A stretch of DNA of 47,647 bases from a virus, in the IMG/VR virus record IMGVR_UViG_3300027730_000044, positions 1-47,647 of that record. One strand, given 5' to 3'. The stretch's first letter is position 1; the number at the start of each line of letters is the position of its first letter. The position numbers were made by a program, and so were the translations under genes. Under the pieces are notes generated by a model, which was not told the origin of the DNA, did not search any database, and saw nothing but the letters and a program-made list of their open reading frames with translations. Below are positions 1,704-40,625 of this stretch, piece by piece.

Positions 1704-2310
1704 CTTCTAGGTTTTTTTTAAATAACTCAAAATCCCACGTAGGGTTTAAATCAGTATAATATCGTTCAATGTTACTTCGGTATAACACACCAGTATAATC
1801 ATACACACCGTTAACCTTAGTATTATGCCCCATGGCTGTTTTAGGTATATCAAACCTATCACATAGTGTCACCACTAACTCACTAACGGCTTCAAATTGT
1901 TCCTGAGTATATTGAGGCCAATAATTATAACCTCTCCACGTTTTATCAATAACATTGTTCGATTGACTATAAATATCACCTAACCATGTAATAAGTTCAT
2001 TCTCATTTGAATTATTTTTAATAAGATAACTATCATTTTCTACAACTATTATAATGTTACCATTATTAAAATTTTTATCTTTAAAAAACTCACTAGTGTA
2101 TTTAGGGTTAAAGTGCATATATATCAAACCACTTGTTGTAACGGTAAATGACGCAGTTTTTGTGTATCTACCATTGTATCTACTTAACCAACCAATAACA
2201 TGACGCATATCATTATTATTACTATTTGTTAATATAATACGTTTTTTATCATGTTCGATTGGAATATAATTAGACGTTGGTAACGGATAGGTTTTATCAT
2301 CAATTATCAT
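1687..2310 (-). CDS. Amidase_2/PGRP-like protein, probably lacking a full zinc site
   Basis: 207 residues resembling the N-acetylmuramoyl-L-alanine amidase (T7 lysozyme/AmpD) fold. The C-terminal half fits well: YTQEQFEAVSELVVTLC, then GH at His162 and TDLNPTWDF with Asp187 in the position of the AmpD-type zinc-binding Asp before Pro and Phe. The N-terminal half carries IILTNS (residues 25-30) where active enzymes have I-V-L-H-H-T, so the first zinc-ligand histidine appears replaced. It overlaps gene 2307-3416 by four bases and gene 1278-1703 by 17. It may be a degenerate endolysin, a peptidoglycan-binding derivative, or an enzyme with a rearranged metal site. Family assignment is by eye from the motif pattern. 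Confidence 0.6.
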   Translation of the reverse strand: MIIDDKTYPLPTSNYIPIEHDKKRIILTNSNNNDMRHVIGWLSRYNGRYTKTASFTVTTSGLIYMHFNPKYTSEFFKDKNFNNGNIIIVVENDSYLIKNNSNENELITWLGDIYSQSNNVIDKTWRGYNYWPQYTQEQFEAVSELVVTLCDRFDIPKTAMGHNTKVNGVYDYTGVLYRSNIERYYTDLNPTWDFELFKKNLEDERTD

Positions 2311-3416
2311 GAATTTCGTTTAAATATTACCTTATCAGTGTTACCATTCTTGACTATCTTATTAGAACCTATACGCTCAATTGAGCTTGACTTAGGGTTT
2401 GGAACATTCACTGAAAACCCTCTATCATTAACACCTCTAATATCGTCTAAGGTTACTTTACCAGTCGGTATAACTGGATTTCTTTGTTTTAACGATGTTT
2501 CTGGGGCTTCTGTTGGTGTTTCTGTTACTATAGGTATGGTAACGGCTTTTGTTAGTGTTTCTAGCGCTAGAGGCTCTGTAATGGGTTCTTTAGGTTTTAC
2601 GACCAATACTGGTTGTTCGTATTTTTTGCTTTCAACCTCAAAAATTCTATTGGTTATTAATATCAACGCTATTGCAAATGGGTCAAAAACAAATATTAAT
2701 AATAATATTAGTATATTAACAACCTTATCTATTGGTTGGTTGGTTAAATTTGAGATATATTTTAATGGCCCGATTTCACCAGCAACATCACTATTAGTAT
2801 TTAAGGTTAATATTTGTATGTTATAATTACCAATAGAGTCAGATAATGCAGCGTTTTTAATATTTATTGCATCTGTCTCAGCTGATAATTTATCAATCTC
2901 AGTATTAGCAATCATAATATCATTTCTAGCTCTAGACTTAGATGTATTGGTGGTCGATTCATCTAAACGCTTTTCTTGTGTCGCCCTAAGTTCTATTAAT
3001 TGGTCAATGCGTCTATTTTTATTGGTTATAATTTTTTCATTATCGGTAATTGTTTTTTCAAATAATATTTTCTTATTATCTAATACACCAATCTCACCTT
3101 CATGTATTTCAACCTTATTGGCTGTTTTTTGGTAAGCATTTGATAGGAAGCCGTAAATACCAGCTGACGTTATTACCATCATTACTATAACAGCAACCGT
3201 TGCATACGCTTTCAACACTCCTTTTAGGTCACCCCAATATCTATGTAATGCTGTTGTCGCAGCAATCTTACTAATTTCTAAAACACTAGCCATTATAATA
3301 ACAGCAGTACCAGCACCAGCAAATAACTGGCTTAAACCAAAAACTGAAAAATATCCAGCACAACCAGCAACCGCTAGGGCTAATATTAACATTAAATACC
3401 CAAATTTATATTTCAT
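2307..3416 (-). CDS. Multi-pass membrane protein with central coiled coil
   Basis: 369 residues. Three hydrophobic segments at the N-terminus (about residues 6-25, 31-48 and 70-92), a soluble charged coiled-coil-like region (95-195), and a fourth strong membrane segment at about 229-255 that contains FVFDPFAIALILI. The C-terminal 110 residues are Pro/Thr/Val-rich and look disordered. An LAVAGC lipobox-like string occurs in the first segment but is embedded in a multi-pass region, so lipidation is unlikely. The gene has its own late-type motif at 3433-3443 and follows the terminator of the sigma-factor gene. Its position before an amidase-like protein and spanin-like proteins suggests a lysis or envelope role, but it is far larger than usual holins. 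Not assigned to a family. Confidence 0.65.
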   Translation of the reverse strand: MKYKFGYLMLILALAVAGCAGYFSVFGLSQLFAGAGTAVIIMASVLEISKIAATTALHRYWGDLKGVLKAYATVAVIVMMVITSAGIYGFLSNAYQKTANKVEIHEGEIGVLDNKKILFEKTITDNEKIITNKNRRIDQLIELRATQEKRLDESTTNTSKSRARNDIMIANTEIDKLSAETDAINIKNAALSDSIGNYNIQILTLNTNSDVAGEIGPLKYISNLTNQPIDKVVNILILLLIFVFDPFAIALILITNRIFEVESKKYEQPVLVVKPKEPITEPLALETLTKAVTIPIVTETPTEAPETSLKQRNPVIPTGKVTLDDIRGVNDRGFSVNVPNPKSSSIERIGSNKIVKNGNTDKVIFKRNS

Positions 3417-3432
3417 ATATTATTCTTTATGC

Positions 3433-3443
3433 ATTATAAATAT
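3433..3443 (-). promoter_or_regulatory. Late-promoter-like motif ATATTTATAAT
   Basis: Coding strand ATATTTATAAT, 17 bases before the ATG at 3416 and directly after the terminator at 3451-3476. Exact copy of the motif found before 11386, 18625, 40625 and 45544. Confidence 0.5.
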
Positions 3444-3450
3444 CTAAAAC

Positions 3451-3476
3451 TAAAAAAGGATGCTAAACTGCATCCT
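3451..3476 (-). terminator. Rho-independent terminator after the sigma-factor gene
   Basis: Inverted repeat AGGATGC / GCATCCT (3457-3463 and 3470-3476) with a six-base loop. On the minus strand it is followed by a T-tract (the A-run at 3452-3457). It lies nine bases after the stop of the sigma-factor gene. Confidence 0.85.
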
Positions 3477-3484
3477 AATTTAAT

Positions 3485-4315
3485 TTATTCGTTTATTAGA
3501 TTGTATAGGTCGTGACTATTAAAACGTAATTTCATTAAGGCTTTATTTTTTACTTGTCGAATGCGTTCTTTGGTTAGGCCGTATCGTTCACCAATGGCTT
3601 CAAGTGTCATAGTCTCGCATTCGGTGTTTAAACCAAAATACGATTCGATAATCTCTCTTTCCCTCTCATCTAATAATGATAAAACATTATCTAATCCAGC
3701 TTTAATTCTGTCATCAACTACCAATTTATCCTCATCGTCAACCTCACTAACTAATAGTTCAATAAATTCAGTACCATCTTCACCAAGAACATCATTTAAT
3801 GACGAGTGTCTTGGATAATTAATTATTGAGACAGGTATGTTATTTCTATCCAATATATCACCATATACTGGTTCCCTTTCATTTAGGGCCTCAAACTTTA
3901 AAATTTCTTTATTTTGTGCTGATATTTTATTAATAATATTAGCTGGCAACCTAACAACCCTAGCATTTTCATTTAGACTTTGTAGTATTGATTGTTTAAT
4001 CCACCATACGGCATATGATATAAATCTAAAGCCTTTCTTATGGTCAAATCTAGTGGCAGCTTTTATTAAGCCATAATTACCCTCGTTGATTAAATCCGAT
4101 AAGGGTAACCCCTGACCCTGATACTCTTTAGCTATTGAAACTACAAACTTTAGATTTGCATTTACTAAGGTATCAATTGCTTTTTGGTCCCCTTTTACTA
4201 TTCTCTTAGCTAAGCTAAGCTCTTCTTTTTGTGTTAGAATAACTGATTTTCTAACATCTTTAAAATATATTGCAATGCTATCCTCAGCATCAAAACTTAC
4301 AAATCTTTTACTCAT
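3485..4315 (-). CDS. RpoD-like sigma-70 family sigma factor
   Basis: 276 residues, close to full length for the short primary sigma factors of Bacteroidetes, which lack the long region 1.1. Region 1.2 is at about residues 13-40. Region 2 is at about 50-120 (NLKFVVSIAKEYQGQG, DLINEGNYGLIKAATRFD, FRFISYAVWWIKQSI). A region 3-like segment follows, and region 4 is at about 212-268 with the helix-turn-helix TLEAIGERYGLTKERIRQVK. It should bind host core RNA polymerase and direct it to phage promoters. Unlike T4 gp55 it has a recognisable region 4, so it could recognise both promoter elements. It follows the UVR-motif gene and ends at a strong terminator. Family assignment is firm; promoter targets are inferred. 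Confidence 0.95.
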   Translation of the reverse strand: MSKRFVSFDAEDSIAIYFKDVRKSVILTQKEELSLAKRIVKGDQKAIDTLVNANLKFVVSIAKEYQGQGLPLSDLINEGNYGLIKAATRFDHKKGFRFISYAVWWIKQSILQSLNENARVVRLPANIINKISAQNKEILKFEALNEREPVYGDILDRNNIPVSIINYPRHSSLNDVLGEDGTEFIELLVSEVDDEDKLVVDDRIKAGLDNVLSLLDEREREIIESYFGLNTECETMTLEAIGERYGLTKERIRQVKNKALMKLRFNSHDLYNLINE

Positions 4316-4398
4316 TGTACTATCGCACTTTCATCTTTATTTTTGTTATTGTAGTTATTAAATATAAGCATTTTTTTTTAAAAGTCAAGCTTTTTAGC

Positions 4399-4863
4399 TT
4401 ATTTTCTTTGTTTTATTAGGTCTCTTAACTCAGCCGCCTTCATGTAATCTTCACGAACTAAAGCCTCATTTAGTTGGTCGTCTAAGCTTACCTTAATCTC
4501 AGTCCTTTGATAAGAATCTTTTTTCGATGATGTATCAACATCATGAATCAATTTATTCGTCATAGACTCAATATCTACCTTATTTAGAAACCCAAACAGA
4601 CCATCTGTTATTTCATCCTTTATAAAGCCAAATGCTGAAGTTTTAGAATCTAATTCAAAGATTAGAAAATTACGTTTGTTATCTGTGAAAAAATGCCTTA
4701 ACTCCACTGGTGTCATCACTGACACGAAGGTTGCAATCATTAACCCACCATGCATAACGGTATTGGGCTTAATTTCACTAATTGATTCTATTTCAACAAC
4801 ACCACCAGTTGTATTGCCTATCATTACAATACAGTAGTTCCTAAATTTACTATTATTAGTCAT
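4399..4863 (-). CDS. Small protein with C-terminal UVR motif
   Basis: 154 residues. The first 115 show no known domain and look alpha/beta. The C-terminus from about residue 126 (SLDDQLNEALVREDYMKAAE, then LRDLI) matches the UVR motif, a helical hairpin found in UvrB, UvrC, ClpC and McsA that mediates protein-protein contacts. Its partner is unknown; possibilities include host UvrABC or Clp components. The gene has a Bacteroidetes-type promoter (4884-4914) about 20 bases before the start and lies upstream of the sigma-factor gene, so it is probably expressed early. The motif is clear; any function is inference. Confidence 0.7.
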   Translation of the reverse strand: MTNNSKFRNYCIVMIGNTTGGVVEIESISEIKPNTVMHGGLMIATFVSVMTPVELRHFFTDNKRNFLIFELDSKTSAFGFIKDEITDGLFGFLNKVDIESMTNKLIHDVDTSSKKDSYQRTEIKVSLDDQLNEALVREDYMKAAELRDLIKQRK

Positions 4864-4883
4864 AGAGTTCCAATTTTATTTAT

Positions 4884-4914
4884 CAAAGGTACGATAATTT
4901 TATCGTATAACCAA
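4884..4914 (-). promoter_or_regulatory. Bacteroidetes-type promoter (TTG-N20-TACCTTTG)
   Basis: On the coding strand TACCTTTG (4891-4884) matches the -7 consensus TAnnTTTG, with TTG 20 bases upstream (4914-4912). It lies about 20 bases before the ATG at 4863. Confidence 0.65.
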
Positions 4915-4937
4915 GTCTTGTACGAATAATTTTATGC

Positions 4938-7289
4938 TTACGCTATCTTAAGAGTTGAGATGTTGTTATCTTTGGTTACAGTTATATTATTGGTCGACCA
5001 ATCTTTAACAAGGTCATTATGTGTTATCAAGAAAACAATATCATACATATCTTTTATCTTATCGAATAGCAATTTCATCTTATCAATGTTTTCAGCTGAT
5101 ATTCGACCCATTATTTCATCGAAGGTTATGAAGTTTGGCATGGGCAGCGTTGATAGCTTACCTAATACACTTCTTAACGCTAAGCTAGCTGCGGTTTTTT
5201 CGAAGCCACTAGCTGATTTTAATAATCTAGAAATATCATCCTTGACAATCAAAAACTGCACGTCATTCTTATCATCTATAAATATCTCAACATCGAAATC
5301 ACAAACATCCTCAAGCAATCTACTAATCTCTGAGTTAATGATTGGTAGTACTGAACGTAGAACCAATTTACTAACACCCTTCTTACCAACCAAGTCTATA
5401 TATATCTTAAATATACGCTCAATCTCTTCTTCTCGCTTAATTGTCTCAATTAACTTCTCTTTTGTTAAGATACTATCCCTATTGCTCTGTATATCATTAG
5501 ATACTCGCTCAAGCTTAGTTATTAACTCATCTTTGGTGCGCTCATGTACTATGATATCCGTCTTAACCCTAGACAATATGATATCAACTCGTTTATTGTG
5601 CTCAATAGCGTCTAAATTAAGGTTATATTTATTTAGGTCGGCCTTTTTTACGGTAACTTGGTTTCGTAAGCTACCTATTTCAACCTCTAAGCGGTCTTTA
5701 TCTAGTTCTAACCTATTTTTAATATCTATCCTTGACTTTATTTGGTTTAACTTTACCAATTCATCATTTAAATTAGATTGCTTTTCAATTAAACTATTCA
5801 ATTCATGTTCTAGTATTGAAATTTCAGATGAATGCTTATTGATATGTTCGGTATTATCTACATCATCAAGCTTTCTATTACATGATTGACATATACCACC
5901 AGCAATTAAACCCTTAACTACTGCCTCTAGGCGCTTGATGTTAGAAGATTTAACAGCCATATCACTAGTGCATAGCGTTAATTCCCTACTTAAATTGTAA
6001 TGTAGGTCCTCATCAAATACAATTGAAGCCATTTCAGTAATTTGAATCGCTAATTCTTCCATCTTTTTCTTTATGGAAAGTCCTTTTGTTGTTAATTCCT
6101 TAATATCTAATTCTATATTAGATGGGTTTAAGGTAGTTATTTGTACATCTACCTTTTCTTTACTATTAAATAACGAATCATTTTCCTCTTTTAATTTAAT
6201 CAAATCATTCTTGGTCTCATCTAATCTATGATTCAATGATTCCCTAAGCTCAATACCATTAGTAACTTTAGATTCATGGTCAACTATATCGTTGCTTAGT
6301 GTTATCGTATCAAATTCATTAGATTTTTTCTTCTTAGAAAATTCATTATATAATTTCCTAGCAGCAGCTTCCTTCAATTCCAGTATCTCTAACCCGATTA
6401 ACCTAGTAAGTACCTTACCAGATTCGGAATTTGTTAGACCTATTAGGTCATCTAGATTTTGTTCGTTTGCTAATACCAGCATCTCAAAATCAGCTTCGGT
6501 ACCAATAGTTTTTCTTAAGTTGGTTGTTGTTTTTTTAGCATCTTCGTCATTTAGCATCTCTTCACTGCCATCTGGTAATAACTTATAATAGTTCACGTTA
6601 TTAACAACGGTCCAACCACCACCCTTCTTAGCGGTACGTCTCATCTTACGCTCTATTATGGTTTCCTCATCTTCAATTTCAATCATACCCCTAACCGTCA
6701 ACTCATTCTTATTACTAAATGAATTGAAAATTTCCTCATTTTTATCGGTCTTGGTTGTCGTACCATGTAATAGAAACTTAATAGAATCAATTGTTAGGGT
6801 AGTTTTTCCACCCATATTGCTGGGCGTTGAATTGACCACTGTTAGGCCCCTTAGCTTGCTAAATGGTACATAATTTGACTCACCAAAAGATAAGAAATTA
6901 TCTATCATAAGCCATTTTATTGACCAATGATTATGTCTAGTTTGTGAAAGGTCAATATTTAATTCACCGTTAACCTTATCATCTAATGCTATGATTCGAT
7001 TAAAATCAACAGTCTTATTATCCCTAAGTAATACCTCTTTCATCAACGCACGTTGATACGTGGTATCCATTATATTCTCAATGTTGGCACCAGTTATTGA
7101 TATCTCCTCACCCTTATCAGTAAACTTGACTGGGTGATAATTAACACTAATGTTATTCTTATTTACACCATATTTGTTTGCAAAATATGTCCTAATCTTA
7201 TTCTTAGCATCCTTTGAATAGTTTTCTGGTCTATCACTCCAATCTACCTTAATCTTTCCAGTGCTGCTTATTGTACTCCAGTTATTCAT
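4938..7289 (-). CDS. SbcC/Rad50-like recombination endonuclease subunit (T4 gp46-like)
   Basis: 783 residues. Walker A is SNMGGKTT (about 157-164). Long coiled-coil arms flank a zinc-hook motif CQSC near residues 471-474. A variant ABC signature SGFEKTAASLALR lies near 695-707 (SGGEK is more usual), followed by Walker B/D-loop FITFDEIMG and the H-loop FLITHN. With the SbcD/Mre11-type subunit encoded at 7644-8459 it should form an ATP-dependent nuclease that resects DNA ends for recombination-dependent replication. T4 gp46 is shorter; here about 125 residues with no recognised domain precede the ABC part. The order nuclease, 116-residue protein, ATPase and the tight spacing indicate one operon. 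Confidence 0.93.
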   Translation of the reverse strand: MNNWSTISSTGKIKVDWSDRPENYSKDAKNKIRTYFANKYGVNKNNISVNYHPVKFTDKGEEISITGANIENIMDTTYQRALMKEVLLRDNKTVDFNRIIALDDKVNGELNIDLSQTRHNHWSIKWLMIDNFLSFGESNYVPFSKLRGLTVVNSTPSNMGGKTTLTIDSIKFLLHGTTTKTDKNEEIFNSFSNKNELTVRGMIEIEDEETIIERKMRRTAKKGGGWTVVNNVNYYKLLPDGSEEMLNDEDAKKTTTNLRKTIGTEADFEMLVLANEQNLDDLIGLTNSESGKVLTRLIGLEILELKEAAARKLYNEFSKKKKSNEFDTITLSNDIVDHESKVTNGIELRESLNHRLDETKNDLIKLKEENDSLFNSKEKVDVQITTLNPSNIELDIKELTTKGLSIKKKMEELAIQITEMASIVFDEDLHYNLSRELTLCTSDMAVKSSNIKRLEAVVKGLIAGGICQSCNRKLDDVDNTEHINKHSSEISILEHELNSLIEKQSNLNDELVKLNQIKSRIDIKNRLELDKDRLEVEIGSLRNQVTVKKADLNKYNLNLDAIEHNKRVDIILSRVKTDIIVHERTKDELITKLERVSNDIQSNRDSILTKEKLIETIKREEEIERIFKIYIDLVGKKGVSKLVLRSVLPIINSEISRLLEDVCDFDVEIFIDDKNDVQFLIVKDDISRLLKSASGFEKTAASLALRSVLGKLSTLPMPNFITFDEIMGRISAENIDKMKLLFDKIKDMYDIVFLITHNDLVKDWSTNNITVTKDNNISTLKIA

Positions 7290-10367: not shown

Positions 10368-10436
10368 TTATATCCAAATATTGTGTTTCTTCATATATCC
10401 AATACCAGCAACGTAGGCATCTGAAATTAAATTATT
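10368..10436 (-). pseudogene. Relic of a RuvC-like resolvase 3' end
   Basis: The minus strand encodes NNLISDAYVAGIGYMKKHNIWI then a stop, in the same frame along its length. This matches the C-terminus of the intact resolvase (CSDAYICGVGYM) encoded about 1.1 kb upstream, and the DNA shares blocks such as CATATATCCAA and GTAGGCATC on the plus strand. The relic begins where the homing endonuclease gene ends. It looks like the original 3' end of the resolvase gene, separated when the endonuclease gene arrived with its own flanking sequence. An ATG just upstream (MGK) gives a 25-codon frame, but translation is doubtful. Confidence 0.75.
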
Positions 10437-11386
10437 CTTTCCCATTTAAACCCGTTATAACTTTTTATAATACCGTCTGAACATTGTTTAATGTATTTAC
10501 TGCTAAATTTAGTTGTTTTGATTAATTCAGTTAATGAGTCCCATGTTTTTATTAAAACCCCGTTTAACGTATATTGTTTAACAATTATCGATGGTCTAAG
10601 ATGTTTTTCTATGAATAATTCTTCGTTTTTGAATTTCCAAATAAAAGAAGCTCCAGTTTTTTTATGACCACCACAAGCTTCCCTTATTATATTAATATTT
10701 ATACCAGTTTTTTCGCTAGCATCTTTTGTTGATGAAAATATATTTAATAATTCACCACTCAAATTATATTGTCTAACTTCTGTTAATCTCTTTCTATCAA
10801 ATAATTTTTTAATTTTATCTTTATTTATTTCAGATAATTCAAATGACCAAATAAAGTTATTTGATTGCGATTGTTTGTTTAAACAACAAGCTGATATATT
10901 TTCAGCTTTAAAACCTAAACACCTCTCAATTTCGGCAGCTGATTTCCATTCCATAACAAATTTACCTTGTAAATCATATTGATATACTTTTTTACCAGCA
11001 AAATTACCTTCTAGATTAATTCTTCTAATATTATTTTTAAATTCATCACTTCGTTTACCAGAATTATTATATTTAGCTATTTTATCTATATTATAACCTA
11101 TTCCTTTTTCATATGACTTTTTTAGGTCTAAATAATATTGCTCTCGTTGGTACAGGATAGTTTTTAACTCCTCATTAGTTTTATCGTTAGAATCAATTTC
11201 TTCTAATATCTCAAATTTAAAATTTTCTAAACCATACTTTTTAATTGCATTACCCAATAATAAACTACCTTTACCAATTCTATGACTACCCCAACGTTTA
11301 ATAATGTTTTGTGAATGCCCAATATAAATTTTACCATCAATATTATTACTTATTTGGTAAACCCCAATTATTTTTTGTTTTTTCAT
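10427..11386 (-). CDS. GIY-YIG homing endonuclease with NUMOD1-like repeats
   Basis: 319 residues. The N-terminal GIY-YIG nuclease domain has GVYQI and KIYIGHS (residues 8-24), Arg31 in the RWGSH segment, and a YGLENF motif. Three DNA-binding NUMOD1-like repeats follow at about 133-185, 203-250 and 260-319; each starts with a V-x-Q-Y-x-L/N-x-G pattern, then a helix-turn-helix, and the first two end in F-I-W-x-F, the third in G-F-K-W. It lies between the resolvase gene and a relic of that gene's 3' end, so it behaves as a mobile intron-less homing endonuclease. A late-type ATATTTATAAT motif lies 13 bases before the start. Its target is probably the resolvase 3' end of an endonuclease-free allele, by inference. 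Confidence 0.9.
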   Translation of the reverse strand: MKKQKIIGVYQISNNIDGKIYIGHSQNIIKRWGSHRIGKGSLLLGNAIKKYGLENFKFEILEEIDSNDKTNEELKTILYQREQYYLDLKKSYEKGIGYNIDKIAKYNNSGKRSDEFKNNIRRINLEGNFAGKKVYQYDLQGKFVMEWKSAAEIERCLGFKAENISACCLNKQSQSNNFIWSFELSEINKDKIKKLFDRKRLTEVRQYNLSGELLNIFSSTKDASEKTGININIIREACGGHKKTGASFIWKFKNEELFIEKHLRPSIIVKQYTLNGVLIKTWDSLTELIKTTKFSSKYIKQCSDGIIKSYNGFKWERII

Positions 11387-17233: not shown

Positions 17234-18625
17234 TTATGGTTTTCTATATACTGCTCTGCCTGTTGCTCCACTAGTTGTATACAAACCACCAGCGGCTAAT
17301 GTCGCATCAGCATCAGCTGCTGCATCATCTGCGTAATCCCTAACGGTTGTTAGTGCTAACGTTTCAACATACATTGTATTATCAATGGTACCAATTATAT
17401 CATTACCAAAAACCATAGTTGAGTTACCGCTAGCCGTTGAACCACTACCATGTACAAAACTATTGTTACCCCCAGCTATTGTTTGAATCCCTCCAGCATG
17501 ACTAGTAGCACCACTAGCTATAGTCAAATAACCCTCAGCGTGTGAAAAATTACCACTTGCCGTTGTATGATTACCCTCGGCATGTGAATAATCACCACTT
17601 GCTGTTGTTCCAGAACCCTCAGCATGTGATATAGTACCACTTGCAGTTGTATTAGCACCCTCAGCGTGTGATATCAAGCCAGATGCTAGTGTTTGATAAC
17701 CCTCAGCATGACTAGTAGCACCGCTTGCCGTTGTTTCTTGGCCCTCAGCGTGTGAATTAGTACCAGATGCTATTGTATCGGAACCCTCAGCGTGAGACGC
17801 TATACCAGATGCAAGTGTTACGGAACCTTCAGCATGTGAAAAATTACCACTGGCTATTGATTCTTGACCCTCAGCATGTGATGAATTTCCACTTGCTATT
17901 GTATTAGAACCACTGGCGTTTGAATATAAACCACTTGCTATTGTTTGATAACCACTAGCATGTGAATAAGCACCACCAGCTATTGTTTGATAACCGCTGG
18001 CATGTGAAGTAGTCCCAGATGCAATTGTTAATTGCCCTTCAGCATGACTGGCAAATCCACTAGCCGTTGTACTACGACCTTCAGCATGTGAGCTTTCACC
18101 CTGAGCAAATGTATCATTACCCTCAGCATGTGAATAATTACCACCAGCTATTGTTAAAGTACCCTCAGCATGACTCGTAATGCCACTAGCTATCGTGTTA
18201 CGACCTTCAGCGTGTGATGTTGCACCACTAGCTGTTGTATTACGACCTTCAGCATGGCTTGCTAGGCCACTAGCAGTTGTTCCAGAACCCTCAGCATGAC
18301 TTCCACCACCACTAGCTATTGTACCAACACCCTCAGCAACTGATGCAAATCCACTAGCAGTTGTTCCAGAACCAATAGCAAAAGCATAGGAGCCAGTAGC
18401 GTCTATTGTTGTTCCATTATTCGCCTTAACTGGGTAGTTTGAACCATTCCATGTTGAACCAGATATAAAATATTCAGCCGCTGGTGTGGATAAACCAGCA
18501 ACCAATGATAATGGAATTGCATATGAACTACCATCAGGATTTTGTGATGTGTCGCCAGTAACAACAATATGTATTAAATCCGTTAAGCTTGCTGCTGAAT
18601 ATTTGGTTCTTTGTGTTAATTTCAT
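17234..18625 (-). CDS. YadA-head-like tail fibre/adhesin with 23 tandem 14-residue repeats
   Basis: 463 residues. After a 78-residue N-terminal segment come 23 consecutive 14-residue repeats (residues 79-400) of consensus SHAEGxxTxASGxx, then a 63-residue tail ending GLYTTSGATGRAVYRKP. The SHAEG/ASG repeat is the left-handed parallel beta-roll repeat of YadA/Hia-type trimeric autotransporter heads (Hep/Hag repeat). In a phage this suggests a trimeric rod that binds the host surface. The C-terminal AAADADATLAAGGLYTTSG segment resembles ends of other phage fibre proteins. A late-type motif sits 13 bases before the start. The repeat array is near-identical at DNA level in places and could change length by recombination. 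Confidence 0.85.
   Translation of the reverse strand: MKLTQRTKYSAASLTDLIHIVVTGDTSQNPDGSSYAIPLSLVAGLSTPAAEYFISGSTWNGSNYPVKANNGTTIDATGSYAFAIGSGTTASGFASVAEGVGTIASGGGSHAEGSGTTASGLASHAEGRNTTASGATSHAEGRNTIASGITSHAEGTLTIAGGNYSHAEGNDTFAQGESSHAEGRSTTASGFASHAEGQLTIASGTTSHASGYQTIAGGAYSHASGYQTIASGLYSNASGSNTIASGNSSHAEGQESIASGNFSHAEGSVTLASGIASHAEGSDTIASGTNSHAEGQETTASGATSHAEGYQTLASGLISHAEGANTTASGTISHAEGSGTTASGDYSHAEGNHTTASGNFSHAEGYLTIASGATSHAGGIQTIAGGNNSFVHGSGSTASGNSTMVFGNDIIGTIDNTMYVETLALTTVRDYADDAAADADATLAAGGLYTTSGATGRAVYRKP
17426..18391 (-). repeat. Tandem 42-bp coding repeats (23 copies)
   Basis: DNA underlying the 14-residue SHAEG repeats (residues 79-400), 23 units of 42 bases in frame with no indels. 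Copies vary at third positions and at variable residues, so the array is old or under selection but still similar enough for recombination. Confidence 0.9.
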
Positions 18626-34413: not shown

Positions 34414-35499
34414 TTAAGCTGAACAACCAAAGCACTCAAACTGAGAATCTTTTGGTTTATTAACCACTACTTCTGACACACTTAGTTTAGAATTCGCTTC
34501 CAATTTAGACTTGGTTCTGGTATAATATACACCAGTCTTTAAACCACCTTTCCAAGCGTACATCAAAGCACTAGCTATCTTACCATACTTTGCATCCATA
34601 TGGTATACATTTAATGATTGTGATTGGTCGACAAATTTATTTCTAATTATTGATAGGTCTAATAATACCCTTTGTGGTATTTCCCAAACATCCTTGTATC
34701 TAATTCTAATATCTTCTGGTATCTCAATGATATTTTGAACACTACCCTTGTTTCTAATCACTTTATCTATCATATTTGTATCCCATAGATTATTTTGAAC
34801 CAGTTCATTAACTAGATATTTGTTAATTACTAAAAACTCACCTTGACCAACACGCCTAGTGAAAAGGTTAGATGTCACAGGCTCAAATGATTCAAAAACA
34901 CCTAATAATATAGCAGAAGATGCTGTTGGCATAAGGGCGATTAATAAGCTATTATACATGGGTATTGGTTCACCAATTGGTTTCGGAGACCACCCTTCGA
35001 TATATGTTTCTCCTTTTGAATATGGACTACCTTCCCAAGCTGGATAGTTTTCACCTAATTCTTCAGCTAACTTCATTGATTCGTCAACAGCAGCCTTATA
35101 CATTGTTTCAAATATATCAGCATTCCATTTCTTGGCTTCATCACTTTCAAACGCTATCTTTTTCTTGGCAAAAAAGTCAGCTAATCCAGCAACACCAATA
35201 GCCAAAGCACGTTGGTCAATACCAGCCGATTTACTCCACTCATCACTCCACTTGTTTGTATCAATTACACGATTTAAGGCTCGTACAAGAACCCTAGTGG
35301 TTTTTTCGATAGTATCTAAGCTAGAATGTTCAGCTAAGTTTACTGATGCTAATGTGCATTGTGGTGTATATTGGGGTTTGGAAGCTTGGAAAATTTCGCA
35401 ATTATGTACTAATACATTATTAGCATAAAAATTATTAGTATTTTCCACTTGGATGTCATATACATCCATTCTTTTTTCTAGTTTGTTAATCTTAATCAT
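34414..35499 (-). CDS. nrdA: Split intein C-half + ribonucleotide reductase alpha C-terminal part
   Basis: 361 residues. Residues 1-33 are an intein C-terminal half (MIKINKLEKRMDVYDIQVEN onward; ending NNVLVHN, then Cys34 as the +1 nucleophile). Residues 34-361 are class I ribonucleotide reductase alpha starting CEIFQ. They carry the Glu of the active-site N-x-C-x-E motif, a redox Cys in PQCTLASVNL, the PTASSAILLGVFES loop, the YY pair for radical transfer (KTGVYYTRT) and the C-terminal CFGC shuttle cysteines (356 and 359). Together with the 36763-38238 product, trans-splicing would give a 716-residue enzyme. The piece is useless as reductase alone. No strong promoter lies directly upstream; it follows the endonuclease gene by 11 bases. 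Confidence 0.93.
   Translation of the reverse strand: MIKINKLEKRMDVYDIQVENTNNFYANNVLVHNCEIFQASKPQYTPQCTLASVNLAEHSSLDTIEKTTRVLVRALNRVIDTNKWSDEWSKSAGIDQRALAIGVAGLADFFAKKKIAFESDEAKKWNADIFETMYKAAVDESMKLAEELGENYPAWEGSPYSKGETYIEGWSPKPIGEPIPMYNSLLIALMPTASSAILLGVFESFEPVTSNLFTRRVGQGEFLVINKYLVNELVQNNLWDTNMIDKVIRNKGSVQNIIEIPEDIRIRYKDVWEIPQRVLLDLSIIRNKFVDQSQSLNVYHMDAKYGKIASALMYAWKGGLKTGVYYTRTKSKLEANSKLSVSEVVVNKPKDSQFECFGCSA
35401..35499 (-). other. Split intein C-terminal half (IntC, 33 residues)
   Basis: Encodes residues 1-33 with intein block F (VYDIQVENTNNFYANN) and block G (VLVHN), followed by the Cys34 extein nucleophile. The terminal His-Asn and +1 Cys needed for trans-splicing are all present. 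Matches the N-half at 36766-37074. Confidence 0.93.
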
Positions 35500-35510
35500 A
35501 ATTTGTATTT

Positions 35511-36710
35511 TTAACTGTTAATATATTCAAATTTAAATCCTTTGTATGTCTTATTTCTACCCTTACACACCGCTAAAACAGATGTTATTTTTCCATTCAT
35601 AAATTCAGCGGCAGATTTTAACGAATCAAAAATTAATTCATTACCTTCTTTATCTATTCTCTTTAATTTCCTCCGATTATTACCAATTTTAACATCAAAG
35701 TTATAATCTTCATTTTCCCACCTAAAAATATGTTCAAATGAATTATTTGTTTTACATTTTCTTCTGATAACGCCTTGATGAAAGCCAGTAAAATTACTAG
35801 CTTCAAATACATTATTAAATATAATTTCTTGTTCGGATTCAACACTTTCCTTATAATACACTAGTTTAGTAATCCTCACAATACCGTTTTTAGTTGTTTT
35901 AAACCCTCTAGGTGAATCATCAATAGGTTTTTTATAATCTAACCGTTTAGATTTAGTGTAAACTAATTCAGTATCAATATATTTAAAAAAATAACCCTTA
36001 TAACTACCACCATATTTAATACATCTATAAATTAAAGATTTAGTTTTAAATCCATATTTATTAAGTATCTCGTTAATATTTAAAATATCTATTTCTACTA
36101 ATGTTTTAGAATCAATCATAACAATTAAATGTTTAACTCTAGATTTAAAATTTTCTTTCATATTATCTATCCGTTCTTTAGTAAATTTTTTGCCTTTATT
36201 CCAATGAACATTGTTAATCTTAGCTAAATATGATGGGTTATTTTCTATCGACCTACCATACATAGGGTTTTTTCTACCTTTAGAGTTTTCACTATGTTTC
36301 TTTCTTATTTCTTCTTTTTTAGGGTTATTAGTAAAAGTGTCACCACCAGTGCCACCTATAACAATATTAGTTAATAAACCATCTTCAGTAAATCGACCAT
36401 AATGTTCAATTAATTCCTTTTCGACTTTAAACGCTTCATCTTCATTATCGGTCTCAAATATAATTTTAAAATTAGGTTTAAACCCTAAATCAATTAATTT
36501 TTTAATTGTATTAGTTTTATATGGGTTAATTTTACTACTGTGATTGTTTTTTAATGCATCAGTATAGTGTGTTAAATGTCGTTTTCTTTTATTTTTAGCG
36601 TTATAATCACCCTTACCAATATAGAAAGGTTTATAGTTTATTTCAGAGTAATTATTACTATAATCACCCATTACTCTATCGTCTAATAAAATGTAAATAT
36701 AATATCTCAT
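35511..36710 (-). CDS. GIY-YIG homing endonuclease between split-intein halves
   Basis: About 399 residues from the ATG at 36710; an in-frame ATG at 36731 would add seven residues (MYCIFIN) but lies in the loop of a large inverted repeat, so the internal start is preferred. GIY-YIG nuclease motifs YYIYILLDD and PFYIGKG are at the N-terminus, a NUMOD3-like NPMYGRSIENNPSYL segment is in the middle, and a NUMOD1-like domain (DSLKSAAEFMNG) is at the C-terminus. It lies between the gene pieces encoding the two intein halves of nrdA. It presumably cleaves intein-less nrdA and so mobilises the split intein and itself. It shares no frame with either half. Confidence 0.9.
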   Translation of the reverse strand: MRYYIYILLDDRVMGDYSNNYSEINYKPFYIGKGDYNAKNKRKRHLTHYTDALKNNHSSKINPYKTNTIKKLIDLGFKPNFKIIFETDNEDEAFKVEKELIEHYGRFTEDGLLTNIVIGGTGGDTFTNNPKKEEIRKKHSENSKGRKNPMYGRSIENNPSYLAKINNVHWNKGKKFTKERIDNMKENFKSRVKHLIVMIDSKTLVEIDILNINEILNKYGFKTKSLIYRCIKYGGSYKGYFFKYIDTELVYTKSKRLDYKKPIDDSPRGFKTTKNGIVRITKLVYYKESVESEQEIIFNNVFEASNFTGFHQGVIRRKCKTNNSFEHIFRWENEDYNFDVKIGNNRRKLKRIDKEGNELIFDSLKSAAEFMNGKITSVLAVCKGRNKTYKGFKFEYINS

Positions 36711-36722
36711 ATTAATAAATAT
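36711..36722 (-). promoter_or_regulatory. Late-promoter-like motif within inverted repeat
   Basis: Coding strand ATATTTATTAAT directly before the preferred start of the endonuclease gene (36710). It forms one arm of the inverted repeat at 36712-36766, so an RNA reading through would pair it with the other arm. Confidence 0.4.
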
Positions 36723-36766
36723 GCAGTACATGGTATAAAGTACACAACATGCTGCATATTTATTAA
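36712..36766. repeat. 15-bp perfect inverted repeat between nrdA N-part and endonuclease gene
   Basis: TTAATAAATATGCAG (36712-36726) and CTGCATATTTATTAA (36752-36766) are perfect reverse complements with a 25-base spacer that contains a further GTAC...GTAC pair. The repeat covers the stop codon of the nrdA N-part (36763-36765) and ends one base before the endonuclease start. It could be a transcription attenuator or a translation-blocking hairpin. There is no G/C-rich stem or clean T-tract, so it is not a standard terminator. Confidence 0.8.
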
Positions 36767-38238
36767 TTAAAGTTAGTATCTAATTCATCATCTTCAAGTA
36801 AATCACAAGCCATAACATAACCTCTATTTACGGTATAGATTTGATGGTCTGGTGTACAAACTATTTTAATACCTTTTTCTTCATCAACTACTTCAATTAC
36901 TTCAGCGTTTTCTTTAGTTTTAATTGCACCTAATATTGGTTGAAAAGTATTATCTTGACTCAGTACAAATAAGTTCTTATCATTTTCAAATCTATCGGTA
37001 ATATCCCCCAAGGTTACCTTTTCAATACCCCCATTTTCGTTAATTATAGTTATAATAGTTTCACCATCCAAACAACATAAATTTGATTGTTTTATCGGAC
37101 CAATATTACTTTGCATATTACGCTTATTAGCGTTATCTTTAAACATAACATATGGTCGACCACTTTCCACCTGAGACTTTATTATTGAATCAAAGATATC
37201 TTTAGGGTTAACTTTTTTACCTAATCCTAAATCAACCGCTTTTTGGTATTCTTCATCAAATTCGGAACCCCATAGGTCATAAAGTGGTTTTAAGCCAGCT
37301 TTTTTTAAGTCATTAGGGCAAAATAAATACCAAGCTTCATTATTCTCCAATTTCTTCATGAAAAGGTCATTTATAATAACCGATGTGAATAAATCACGAC
37401 TTCTCATTTGCTCATCACCAATGGGTAATGTTAAGTTAAGGAAATCAAAGATATCCCTATGCCATAGAGATAGATATAAAGCACAACTACCAGAACGAGA
37501 ACCTTGCTTATAAAATCGCATCTTGCTCTGAACCATATCGGCTAACCTAACTACACCACCAGCGTTGCCTTGGAACGATTCTACGATACTCTCTTTGCTT
37601 CGTAATGGGTCAATCAATAGTCCAATGCCAGAACCCTCCTTAGAGGCCGCAGAAATCTTTGTAAGCGTGTTTTCAATTCCTTCAAATGAATCATCTTCTA
37701 AGTGTGTAAGATTACAACTAATCATACCACCTCTTTTATCGATACCAGCGTTTGTATATGTTGGTGTTGCAAAGTTACCTCTTTTATTGGTTAATTCTTC
37801 CAATAATGCAGACTTAGACTTATCATCGTCACCAAATAAATGATTTGCAACCCTTAGATACATACAAGAAGGTAATTCAATTGGGGTTTTCTTATCATCC
37901 CTCATTGAATACTTGCTTAAGAATGTAGTTGCGGCAAAAAAATCATATGTTAAGTCAACTGGTTGTAATTCCTTATTAATTAACTTAGATTGACGGCTTA
38001 ATAAAATACGGCCACCTAATAAAGAATAATCTGGGTGTTGTATTATCTTATCAGCCGATTTAAACGCTATTATTTCATCAATTTCCGTTGTTGTGATATT
38101 ATCACTAATCAATGGTATTACTTCTTGAAATAAAAGGTCGCTATCAACCAGTAATCCAGCAGCTTGTGTCTTGATTCTCGTAAGAATCTTATTAGGCATA
38201 AATGCCTGTGATGTTTTATCTCTCTTTAAAATTCGCAT
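36763..38238 (-). CDS. nrdA: Ribonucleotide reductase alpha N-terminal part + split intein N-half
   Basis: 491 residues. Residues 1-388 are class I ribonucleotide reductase alpha: an N-terminal ATP-cone-like region (MRILKRDKTSQAFMPNKI), the redox Cys in GGMISCNLTHLEDD, substrate-loop regions (GSGIGLLIDPLRS, GSRSGSCALYLS), ending PIKQSNLC with the catalytic Asn and Cys388. Residues 389-491 are an intein N-half starting at Cys389 (CLDGETIITI) with block B CTPDHQIY. It reduces ribonucleotides to deoxyribonucleotides with the beta subunit (38251-39204), after trans-splicing to the product of 34414-35499. It is 12 bases downstream of nrdB. Confidence 0.93.
   Translation of the reverse strand: MRILKRDKTSQAFMPNKILTRIKTQAAGLLVDSDLLFQEVIPLISDNITTTEIDEIIAFKSADKIIQHPDYSLLGGRILLSRQSKLINKELQPVDLTYDFFAATTFLSKYSMRDDKKTPIELPSCMYLRVANHLFGDDDKSKSALLEELTNKRGNFATPTYTNAGIDKRGGMISCNLTHLEDDSFEGIENTLTKISAASKEGSGIGLLIDPLRSKESIVESFQGNAGGVVRLADMVQSKMRFYKQGSRSGSCALYLSLWHRDIFDFLNLTLPIGDEQMRSRDLFTSVIINDLFMKKLENNEAWYLFCPNDLKKAGLKPLYDLWGSEFDEEYQKAVDLGLGKKVNPKDIFDSIIKSQVESGRPYVMFKDNANKRNMQSNIGPIKQSNLCCLDGETIITIINENGGIEKVTLGDITDRFENDKNLFVLSQDNTFQPILGAIKTKENAEVIEVVDEEKGIKIVCTPDHQIYTVNRGYVMACDLLEDDELDTNFN
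36766..37074 (-). other. Split intein N-terminal half (IntN, 103 residues)
   Basis: Encodes residues 389-491: Cys1 and block A (CLDGETIITI), a hydrophobic beta region, and block B with the Thr-x-x-His motif TPDH, ending DLLEDDELDTNFN then a stop. No endonuclease domain is fused. The splice junction is codon-exact between Cys388 and Cys389. Confidence 0.93.
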
Positions 38239-38250
38239 AGTTATATTTGT

Positions 38251-39204
38251 TTAAAAATCTTGTTCAAAAATACCCTCAGTACTTGTTGGTATGTCAACCC
38301 TAGTATATTCACCTTCTCTTTTCTCAAAGAAGTTATTCTTAGCTGATAAACCAATTCTAGACATATAGTCTAATGGGTTTGTAACCATAAATTCTCTTTC
38401 ACAACCGAAGTCATTAAGAACAATATCAGTAACATATTGTACGTACTTAACCATATCATTTTTTGTTAAGCCTTGTAGTCCGTCTGGCATACTATTTTCA
38501 ACAAAGACCTTCTCAACCTCATAACAACCCAATATAATATTTCGCAATTCATCCTTGGATAATTTATACTCATCTTTTAAATAATTGTTGTATAAATATA
38601 AAGCAAATTCATAGTGAGCTGTTTCATCACGTAAAATCAATTCATTCATGGCTGCAAGACCTGGCATTTTATTTCTACTTCTAAACCAGAAAACTCCAGA
38701 AAAAACGCTAGAAAAAGCTATACCCTCAACACAAGCAAACGCAACCAATCTATGTGAAAAAGACGGGTGTTGTATCCAAGTCTCAGCCCATTCAGCCTTT
38801 GTTGCAACAGCAACGTTGGTATCCATTGAATGGAAAAGTTCATCTCTTTCTGCTAGATTTTGTATAAACGTTTCAATCAATAAAGAATAACCATTTGCAT
38901 GTACTTGTTCGATAAACGTTTGGTGACCATAAAAATACTGTGCCTCTAGTATTTCAACTTCACGTAAGAAATTTGTAGCTAGATTATCAATGACCAATCC
39001 ATCAGATACCGCAAAAAATGCTAGTATATTCTTTAGGTATTGCTTCTCATTATCTTTTAGCTCATCATATTTATCCTTTGATAAATCAGTTTCTTCAGCA
39101 ACCCAAGTCTGGGATTCCGCACCTTTATATTTTTGCCATAAATCATTGTGAATGATTGGAAATATAACATATCTCTTCTTTAATGCTTTGTCTTTTAAAT
39201 ACAT
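38251..39204 (-). CDS. nrdB: Ribonucleotide reductase beta subunit, class I
   Basis: 317 residues of the ferritin-like NrdB fold. Metal and radical residues are visible: a carboxylate in WVAEETDLSKD (around residue 38), Glu99, His102 and Tyr106 in FIEQVHANGYS (E-x2-H-x3-Y), Glu in CVEGIAFSSVF and Glu/His in LILRDETAHYEF. It generates the tyrosyl radical used by NrdA. It precedes the fractured nrdA by 12 bases and follows the helicase gene by 14, so dNTP supply and replication are co-expressed. The C-terminus ends GIFEQDF, of the type that docks to NrdA. Intact, unlike the alpha subunit gene. Confidence 0.95.
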   Translation of the reverse strand: MYLKDKALKKRYVIFPIIHNDLWQKYKGAESQTWVAEETDLSKDKYDELKDNEKQYLKNILAFFAVSDGLVIDNLATNFLREVEILEAQYFYGHQTFIEQVHANGYSLLIETFIQNLAERDELFHSMDTNVAVATKAEWAETWIQHPSFSHRLVAFACVEGIAFSSVFSGVFWFRSRNKMPGLAAMNELILRDETAHYEFALYLYNNYLKDEYKLSKDELRNIILGCYEVEKVFVENSMPDGLQGLTKNDMVKYVQYVTDIVLNDFGCEREFMVTNPLDYMSRIGLSAKNNFFEKREGEYTRVDIPTSTEGIFEQDF

Positions 39205-39218
39205 TTTTTACTATTATT

Positions 39219-40625
39219 TTAATTACCGTTATTTAATGCTTCTCTTCTAAGTCTAGTTGCGTTCAACAAATCATTTACCCTTTGTTGGTTATTAACCTCA
39301 ACATCTTTTCTGTGCTCCACTTGTGTTCTTCCACTCTTAAATTCATTATTCTCAATTTGAATTGTTGAGTTATTAAATATAACATCCTCAAATATTAATC
39401 CATCCTTTCCAAATCTAGACTTTAATATTGCCATTGTTGCCGTACCGTCTTCCTTTTGGTCTAGTGACTTAGCAATGGACACGATAAAGTGGCCTATCTG
39501 TCCCTTTTTGATTGAACCACCCATTTGGTCAGATTCAACAACCGTAGCTTTAATACTTGAGCGATTTCCTTGTACAGCGGTCCAACCAGCAAGATTTAAT
39601 TCATCCAACATTGATTCAAATTCACGCATAACGCTACCCTCACCAATATTAGCATCATCATACCTTCTTGAAGGTGTCACACAATCAATATAATCTAATA
39701 AAATTATGTCAGGTCTAAAGCCTTCAGATATTTGTTTTCGTATATACTGGCGTATCATAGGTATTGTTGTACCAGCACTTGGAAATTTCTTTAGTTTAAG
39801 TGAACCTTTAGCGTTATTATTTTTTTCGTTTTTTAGATTAATTATATCATCAGTATGTAATGATAAATCATTTAAATCAATACCTGTCCAACAAGATAAG
39901 TGCTTACGCTGAATAACCTTTGGATTATCTTCAAAAAATATTTGTATAACATTATAACCATCATTCATAGCTGTATTAGCTATCTTAGTTATCATTGTGG
40001 TTTTGCCGACCCCGAATGGCGCTAAGATTAGAGCTAACTCACCCTTAGATAGACCACCATTCATTACCTCATCTAAAAAACTAATACCAGTTCTTATTGG
40101 TTGACGAAAATCATCTGATAATATTGATTCAATATTATCGAGAACATTGATAGTATCATCTTGATTATCACCATGTTCTAACGCCTTACGTAGTATTGAT
40201 TCACATTCATCATAACTCTCAAAATCACCCTTGTCAATTATTACTTGAATGGACTTTATTGATTTCTTTAACTCCTGTTGCTTACAGAACTTCATTGCAA
40301 TATCTTGAACCTTTAAGGTATCATGTAAACTGATATTCTTAATCTTGTTTAATTGAGATAAGGCATATTTTTGTTGAATATCGTCTTTAATATCGCCCAA
40401 TAATCTAAACTCAATACTACCCATATCAGGTATAATATCATCTTGTACCTTAGCATCTTTAATTGTTGCAACTATAACCCTTAAGTATGGGTCTGCAAAA
40501 TAATTTGGGTCAACAATTTCAATTATAGTCTCAGCAAACCTATTATCTGTTAATAATTGAGCAACAAATCTCATTTGGTAATCTAACCCTAAAAACCCTA
40601 AATTATCCCTATCTATTTTTGCCAT
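39219..40625 (-). CDS. DnaB-type replicative helicase (T4 gp41-like)
   Basis: 468 residues. RecA-type helicase core with Walker A APFGVGKTTM (202-211), the H1a-like segment QIFFEDNP, Walker B DIILLDYIDC (306-315), and the motif VQGNRSSIKATVVES typical of DnaB/gp41 motif H4. The N-terminal 170 residues would be the primase-interacting hairpin domain. It unwinds DNA at the fork and works with the primase at 9372-10328. A late-type ATATTTATAAT motif lies about 32-42 bases upstream, next to a hairpin formed by the end of the preceding gene. Strong assignment. Confidence 0.94.
   Translation of the reverse strand: MAKIDRDNLGFLGLDYQMRFVAQLLTDNRFAETIIEIVDPNYFADPYLRVIVATIKDAKVQDDIIPDMGSIEFRLLGDIKDDIQQKYALSQLNKIKNISLHDTLKVQDIAMKFCKQQELKKSIKSIQVIIDKGDFESYDECESILRKALEHGDNQDDTINVLDNIESILSDDFRQPIRTGISFLDEVMNGGLSKGELALILAPFGVGKTTMITKIANTAMNDGYNVIQIFFEDNPKVIQRKHLSCWTGIDLNDLSLHTDDIINLKNEKNNNAKGSLKLKKFPSAGTTIPMIRQYIRKQISEGFRPDIILLDYIDCVTPSRRYDDANIGEGSVMREFESMLDELNLAGWTAVQGNRSSIKATVVESDQMGGSIKKGQIGHFIVSIAKSLDQKEDGTATMAILKSRFGKDGLIFEDVIFNNSTIQIENNEFKSGRTQVEHRKDVEVNNQQRVNDLLNATRLRREALNNGN

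Follow-up and report, generated by a model that had tools for sequence, protein, structure and literature searches.

A Probable Mobile Split-Intein Cassette with a GIY-YIG Endonuclease Gene in the Fractured nrdA Gene of a Phage

Introduction

Genes fractured by split inteins (NrdA, NrdJ, gp41, IMPDH and others) were reportedly recovered from ocean metagenomes by Dassa and colleagues in 2009, and half of those loci reportedly bear Vsr-like enzymes. The present work concerns a comparable locus in the IMG/VR virus record IMGVR_UViG_3300027730_000044, of which a stretch of 47,647 nucleotides (positions 1 to 47,647; hereafter the window) was analyzed. Its nrdA gene, for the alpha subunit of ribonucleotide reductase (RNR), is broken by the two halves of a split intein, between which lies a free-standing endonuclease gene of the GIY-YIG family. 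We consider it highly probable that this insertion is a mobile fractured-gene cassette, made up of a split intein and a homing endonuclease, which homes as a unit and leaves NrdA to be restored by trans-splicing. A previous interpretation of the DNA, made without database searches (the sequence-only reading), had likened the layout to that of Dassa and colleagues, and the likeness is real: an enzyme gene is broken by a split intein, a free-standing endonuclease gene lies between the halves, the setting is mainly phage and nrdA is among the targets (seven nrdA genes in the set, according to a paper that cites it; PMC3653736). The window differs in presenting a GIY-YIG gene and a hairpin in a 47.6-kb phage context, and its relatives show how the cassette is transferred, decays and is refilled.

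The NrdA-2 split intein resembles those of loci L124 and L121-L134 (here and below, relatives are labeled with L and a number). It belongs to the same intein family as that of the window, with an N part (IN) about 40-48% identical, and it lies in the same NrdA region, but in NrdA-2-like loci, at SNL^C, the radical cysteine serves as the +1 residue, whereas the window clade is at SNLC^C/S (the caret marks the insertion point). For NrdJ-1 a solved structure is available (PDB 8ubs) and matches both halves of the window intein, although its host protein is, from the name, a class II RNR, and the similarity is moderate. In AceL NrdHF (PMC7891396), too, a phage RNR gene is fractured and holds a GIY-YIG endonuclease, but there the RNR beta subunit is affected and the intein is of class 3 with Ala1, while that of the window is of class 1 with Cys1. 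Phage Aeh1 likewise has nrdA as two genes around a homing endonuclease gene, with an RNA hairpin before the endonuclease, yet its split is not described as intein-mediated and the two-piece enzyme is reported as functional (PMC2988022). The arrangement itself is a known fractured gene, and GIY-YIG examples have already been published. The suggestion that the combination with a GIY-YIG enzyme may be new consequently had to be trimmed, given AceL nrdHF and about 20 distinct NrdA loci with a shorter GIY-YIG gene at the site neighboring the window's. A literature search, with few subscription papers within reach, returned no report of a recent transfer of a whole fractured cassette, of endonuclease turnover at one split-intein site or of a one-codon site shift.

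Structure of the Fractured nrdA Gene

All three open reading frames (ORFs) of the proposed arrangement were recovered, with nrdA as two separate minus-strand genes (N-half at 36763-38238 and C-half at 34414-35499). Along that strand the order is nrdB (38251-39204), nrdA N-half, GIY-YIG ORF, nrdA C-half and baseplate genes. The elements of the locus, with lengths in amino acids (aa) and the evidence for each, are the following.

37075..38238, minus strand: nrdA N-extein, 388 aa, ending in KQSNLC (ORF, Pfam, human R1 alignment)
36763..37074, minus strand: N part of the split intein (IN), 103 aa plus TAA, with Cys1 and block B TPDH (ORF, structure match, relatives)
36713..36765, minus strand: 53-nt hairpin just 5' of the endonuclease start (z = -5.1; five relatives)
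35511..36710, minus strand: free-standing GIY-YIG endonuclease, 399 aa (ORF, Pfam, comparison with L083, motif alignment)
35401..35499, minus strand: C part of the split intein (IC), 33 aa, with its own ATG and ending in NNVLVHN (ORF, relatives, structure match)
34414..35400, minus strand: nrdA C-extein, 328 aa, with the +1 Cys first (CEIFQAS) and ending in FECFGCSA (ORF, Pfam, human R1 alignment)
35401..37074, minus strand: entire, probably mobile cassette IN-hairpin-GIY-IC (comparison with relatives)

After its 388 reductase residues the N-half continues as CLDGET...CTPDH...DTNFN and stops, and the C-half opens with MIKINKLEKRMDVYDIQVENTNNFYANNVLVHN, followed by 328 reductase residues from CEIF. 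These sum to 716 and, as the sequence-only reading had it, no reductase residue is missing: the halves cover positions 2-213 and 213-523 of the Pfam NrdA barrel profile, leaving no gap, and the human R1 alignment runs up to SNLC429-T430 and again from residue 433, with E-I in between. With this, with the N and C parts of one intein on its pieces and with a separate endonuclease ORF between them, the locus has the makeup of a fractured gene. The last Cys of the N-extein aligns with human R1 Cys429, and from established knowledge of class I RNRs (E. coli C439, human C429) we take it to be the radical cysteine. The break, SNLC^CEIF, falls directly after it, inside the active site. Since the N-half has the radical cysteine and the C-half the glutamate two residues on, neither would be an enzyme alone, and trans-splicing of the two would be the only good way to a functional NrdA.

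The intein features that had been read from the letters, namely Cys1 and TPDH on the upstream piece and HN with a +1 Cys on the downstream piece, are in place. Pfam NrdA and Intein_splicing match both halves, the intein scores lying under the curated cut-off, and the Intein_splicing profile (length 155) is covered at 3-90 by the N-half and at 124-155 by the C-half. Compared with solved structures, IN matches the NrdJ-1 intein (8ubs, E = 6e-16), and IC matches, among others, the C ends of NrdJ-1 (E = 0.0014) and of a gp41-1-like intein (E = 0.008). Judging by these matches, the two halves are parts of one intein family, as had been supposed. Cys1, TxxH in block B, the His-Asn end and a +1 Cys, Ser or Thr, which define a class 1 intein, are all present and kept in relatives. 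An intein start at the first Cys of SNLCC was considered and rejected, because the spliced NrdA would be one residue shorter than all relatives and the family-wide CLxG start would be broken.

Recent Transfer of the Cassette

Relatives were collected from IMG/VR in scans with the nrdA N-half (80 loci), the endonuclease (6 and then 19 loci) and IN (80 loci). Most loci of the N-half scan are uninterrupted at the window site (SNLC-Ile-Glu), others carry a window-type cassette and four hold a different split intein. L005, L083 and L085 come from three metagenomes. Their cassettes, each about 1.69 kb long, show 99-100% DNA identity, against 77-78% for the exteins (53-63% at third codon positions) and 73-80% locally for the nrdA flanks of the three phages. 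Identity extends into the flanks by 3-6 bp ahead of the Cys1 codon and by 5-22 bp past the final Asn codon. On both sides, the empty-site phages L031/L036 match the L005 flanks at 93-94% identity, the flanks of L083 point to L053, and those of L085 to a set common to both sides; nrdB is found upstream in 8/8 and gp25 downstream in 7/8 of the contigs tested. Since both flanks lead to the same empty relatives and the nrdB/gp25 context is kept, we conclude that none of these contigs is a chimera and that the insertions happened recently. An element far more similar than its flanks, with sharp edges and with empty sites in close relatives, has the marks of a mobile cassette, and cassettes are more alike than flanks in most other close pairs too. 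We read these comparisons as a recent homing of the cassette as one unit, IN-hairpin-GIY-IC.

When L005 is set against L031, the first 18 nt downstream of the insertion contain six differences and the next 72 none. This stretch, which on the sequences compared is best taken as a short co-conversion tract, brings the +1 Cys codon and the stretch coding for CEIFQAS. Upstream differences from L031 are scattered over the 90 bases inspected, with no readable tract edge. Intron-encoded endonucleases cut at most 25 bp from the insertion, whereas the cut sites of free-standing ones are hundreds to thousands of bases distant (PMC2988022), and the short tract suggests that the free-standing GIY gene behaves like an intein-borne one. 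Among cultured phages no DNA match to the cassette was found and protein matches were weak only, and bacterial and archaeal genomes gave two weak matches and no clear contiguous ancestor.

Decayed and Refilled Sites

In all 80 loci of the IN scan (80/80) the ORF stops right after the N part, and none is contiguous. The intein relatives amount to 58 distinct loci, with nuclease families scanned on representatives; both halves are present at SNL^C in 37 of them and at SNLC^C/S in 13. The gap holds a long (n = 9) or short (n = 20) GIY-YIG gene, an HNH (n = 3) or TnsA-like PD-(D/E)XK nuclease (n = 6), truncated remnants (n = 2), or no ORF of 60 aa (n = 10, gaps of 1-248 nt). Losses or remnants of the endonuclease were recorded in L003, L108, L117, L124, L139 (compared with L136), L004, L103 and L131. 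What L004 retains of the GIY gene is its final 36 codons, preceded by half the hairpin. Two almost identical phages (flanks 99.4-99.7% identical) differ in that L136 has an endonuclease and L139 does not, and in L117 the IN-IC gap is 1 nt. The intein would stay split after decay or deletion of the endonuclease because the halves are still needed and lie in different frames, and the fracture may be a one-way ratchet, as no contiguous form was among the 80 intein relatives retrieved. A contig binned to a Cloacimonadota metagenome-assembled genome, which probably belongs to a phage, bears an endonuclease-free split nrdA intein with an HNH gene just after the C-half (L187:1502-3546).

Endonuclease Gene and Hairpin

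The endonuclease ORF (35511-36731, minus strand) has an upstream ATG at 36731 and an alternative one at 36710 (MRYYIYIL), which is more likely the true start because L083 has lost the upstream ATG. It encodes a LEM-3-like GIY-YIG domain (PF22945; 34.5 bits against a cut-off of 27), with the Tyr/Gly, Arg, Glu and Asn residues of the motif (Y4/Y6, Y30/G32, R44, E97, N115) invariant in 8 relatives. Its C-terminal I-HmuI NUMOD-like domain falls just under the cut-off (25.5 bits against 27). The sequence-only reading had described a complete GIY-YIG/NUMOD gene; the GIY-YIG part stands, whereas NUMOD3 is marginal (E = 0.04) and the Pfam scan of this gene returned no NUMOD1 match. Comparison of the endonuclease profile with solved structures gave nothing significant.

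The hairpin ends about 2 bases before ATG 36710 (-20 kcal/mol, z = -5.1). Over six loci (the window and five relatives) 95% of the pair cells are retained and two pairs are changed on both sides; the shuffle control was not strong for covariation, and the claim made here is one of conservation, not proof of covariation. L009 has a different, stronger hairpin before its unrelated nuclease (z = -10.2), and in L136 another hairpin covers the endonuclease start (z = -3.6). Early translation is known to be blocked by hairpins in T4 I-TevI, segB and Aeh1 mobE (PMC2988022), and by analogy the cassette hairpin may serve the same purpose for its endonuclease. The 13-base centre is inverted between L005/L062/L006 and L083/L085 (GTATAAAGTACAC vs GTGTACTTTATAC), an inversion inside a palindrome.

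Site Shift and Multiply Broken Genes

The window clade has its insertion a codon further downstream than the related SNL^C site, and the window, at SNLC^C, is not an NrdA-2 allele with the radical Cys as +1. A single change divides the two sites on the tree built from the intein halves, and the 13 SNLC^C/S loci form one group with moderate support (93/83). At SNL^C the radical cysteine is itself the +1 nucleophile and splicing would leave NrdA unchanged. In the window clade a +1 Cys (Ser in L117) stands in place of the usual Ile, so that after homing the spliced protein would bear an Ile-to-Cys scar. The uninterrupted nrdA of L060 (6898-6930) reads SNLCCEI, with Cys at the usual Ile place, against Ile in 31 other uninterrupted relatives; this Cys could be the scar of a precise intein loss, or plain variation.

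A second split intein lies at PTAS^S in L083 (4648-8580) and L085 (4653-8590), with another, unclassified endonuclease, and L108/L189 and L117-L120/L190-L193 have both split inteins with the endonucleases absent. To judge from these sequences, at least four relatives would have to assemble NrdA from three chains. Such twice-broken genes supply naturally paired split inteins that have to splice within a single protein and not cross with each other, a property useful for protein engineering. In addition, a cis intein bearing a LAGLIDADG domain interrupts the L085 nrdA at GMISC^N (2235-4964). A smaller contiguous intein apparently lies at the same GMISC^N site in L189, where a serine-recombinase-like protein with a MerR-type N-terminus (IS607-like; 5577-6179) is encoded directly after the fractured nrdA.

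Proposed Mechanism and Alternatives

We propose that a class-1 split intein with a GIY-YIG gene between its halves was inserted in the nrdA of a T4-like phage, after the radical-cysteine codon. The two nrdA pieces would be translated separately, and their intein halves would associate and trans-splice into a 716-aa NrdA with Cys for the usual Ile after the radical Cys, while endonuclease translation would probably be damped by the hairpin before its start. In a co-infecting phage the endonuclease is expected to cut the empty nrdA allele near the insertion site, and repair would copy the entire cassette together with some 20 bp of the flank downstream; of these steps, transfer and short co-conversion are visible in the sequences. 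A gap left by a lost endonuclease could be refilled by other endonucleases. Points against this account include the low confidence with which AlphaFold models the endonuclease (pLDDT 57.7) and the small number of loci from which co-conversion was read.

The NrdA fragments might instead assemble non-covalently, the intein halves being inert tails, as in Aeromonas phage Aeh1, where mobE lies between the parts of a split nrdA and the two-piece reductase is functional (PMC2988022). This is improbable for the window, where the two tails correspond to the opposite ends of a single intein family (an argument, not proof), the catalytic Cys1, TPxH, HN and +1 Cys/Ser are conserved across dozens of loci, and the break comes directly after the radical Cys. 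We find it very improbable that the intein is dead, nrdA inactive and the phage reliant on the host reductase. For nrdA genes of Campylobacter phages that hold putative inteins, degeneration has been proposed (PMC3653736), but the exteins of fractured relatives are mostly 76-89% identical in protein with third positions at about 48-63%, which implies purifying selection, and the downstream half retains both a start of its own and the cysteine pair at its C-terminus (FECFGC).

As for the movement of the cassette, general phage recombination could be responsible rather than its own endonuclease, and endonuclease-free copies do look mobile (cassette 95% identical between L003 and L115, flanks 77-78%). 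This seems unlikely, however, as identity edges at 3-22 bp from the intein ends within unrelated flanks are the pattern of site-specific cutting. An assembly artefact joining unrelated pieces, a worry that the sequence-only reading had itself raised and that any metagenomic source invites, has next to no likelihood: a 142-kb contig matches the window DNA at 100% identity over 13.5 kb, the same order recurs in contigs of many metagenomes (up to 339 kb), and the conserved nrdB/gp25 neighbors and shared empty relatives reported above point the same way.

Beyond the mobile cassette of the window, we lean toward the wider view that split-intein fractures are a class of self-sustaining mobile element, combining a one-way ratchet, homing as a unit, endonuclease swaps (GIY-YIG, HNH, PD-(D/E)XK), a one-codon slide of the site and stacking up to a three-chain NrdA with two split inteins. 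Views on the origin, spread and persistence of split inteins have so far rested largely on metagenomic snapshots; here, one site has empty, invaded, decayed and endonuclease-free alleles, with transfer edges readable to a few bases. Such alleles and the recent transfers make split-intein homing, endonuclease turnover and the permanence of gene breaks directly testable, and the shifted site and visible homing history make the locus a good test system.

Other Genes of the Window and Its Relatives

The replicative helicase gene of the window (39219-40625) is uninterrupted. In L003 (3001-5008) and L040 (600-2222) the helicase gene is fractured by a gp41-1-like split intein (ending in YANDIYTHN^S) and carries another endonuclease gene. 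The window has a second free-standing GIY-YIG homing endonuclease at 10427-11386 (minus strand); it contains three NUMOD1 repeats, and primase-like and RNase H/RuvC-like genes flank it. A phage-encoded Sigma-70-like RNA polymerase sigma factor is located at 3485-4315 (minus strand) and, in the tail gene region, the protein encoded at 17234-18625 (minus strand) has many SHAEG..TIASG repeats typical of trimeric adhesin heads.
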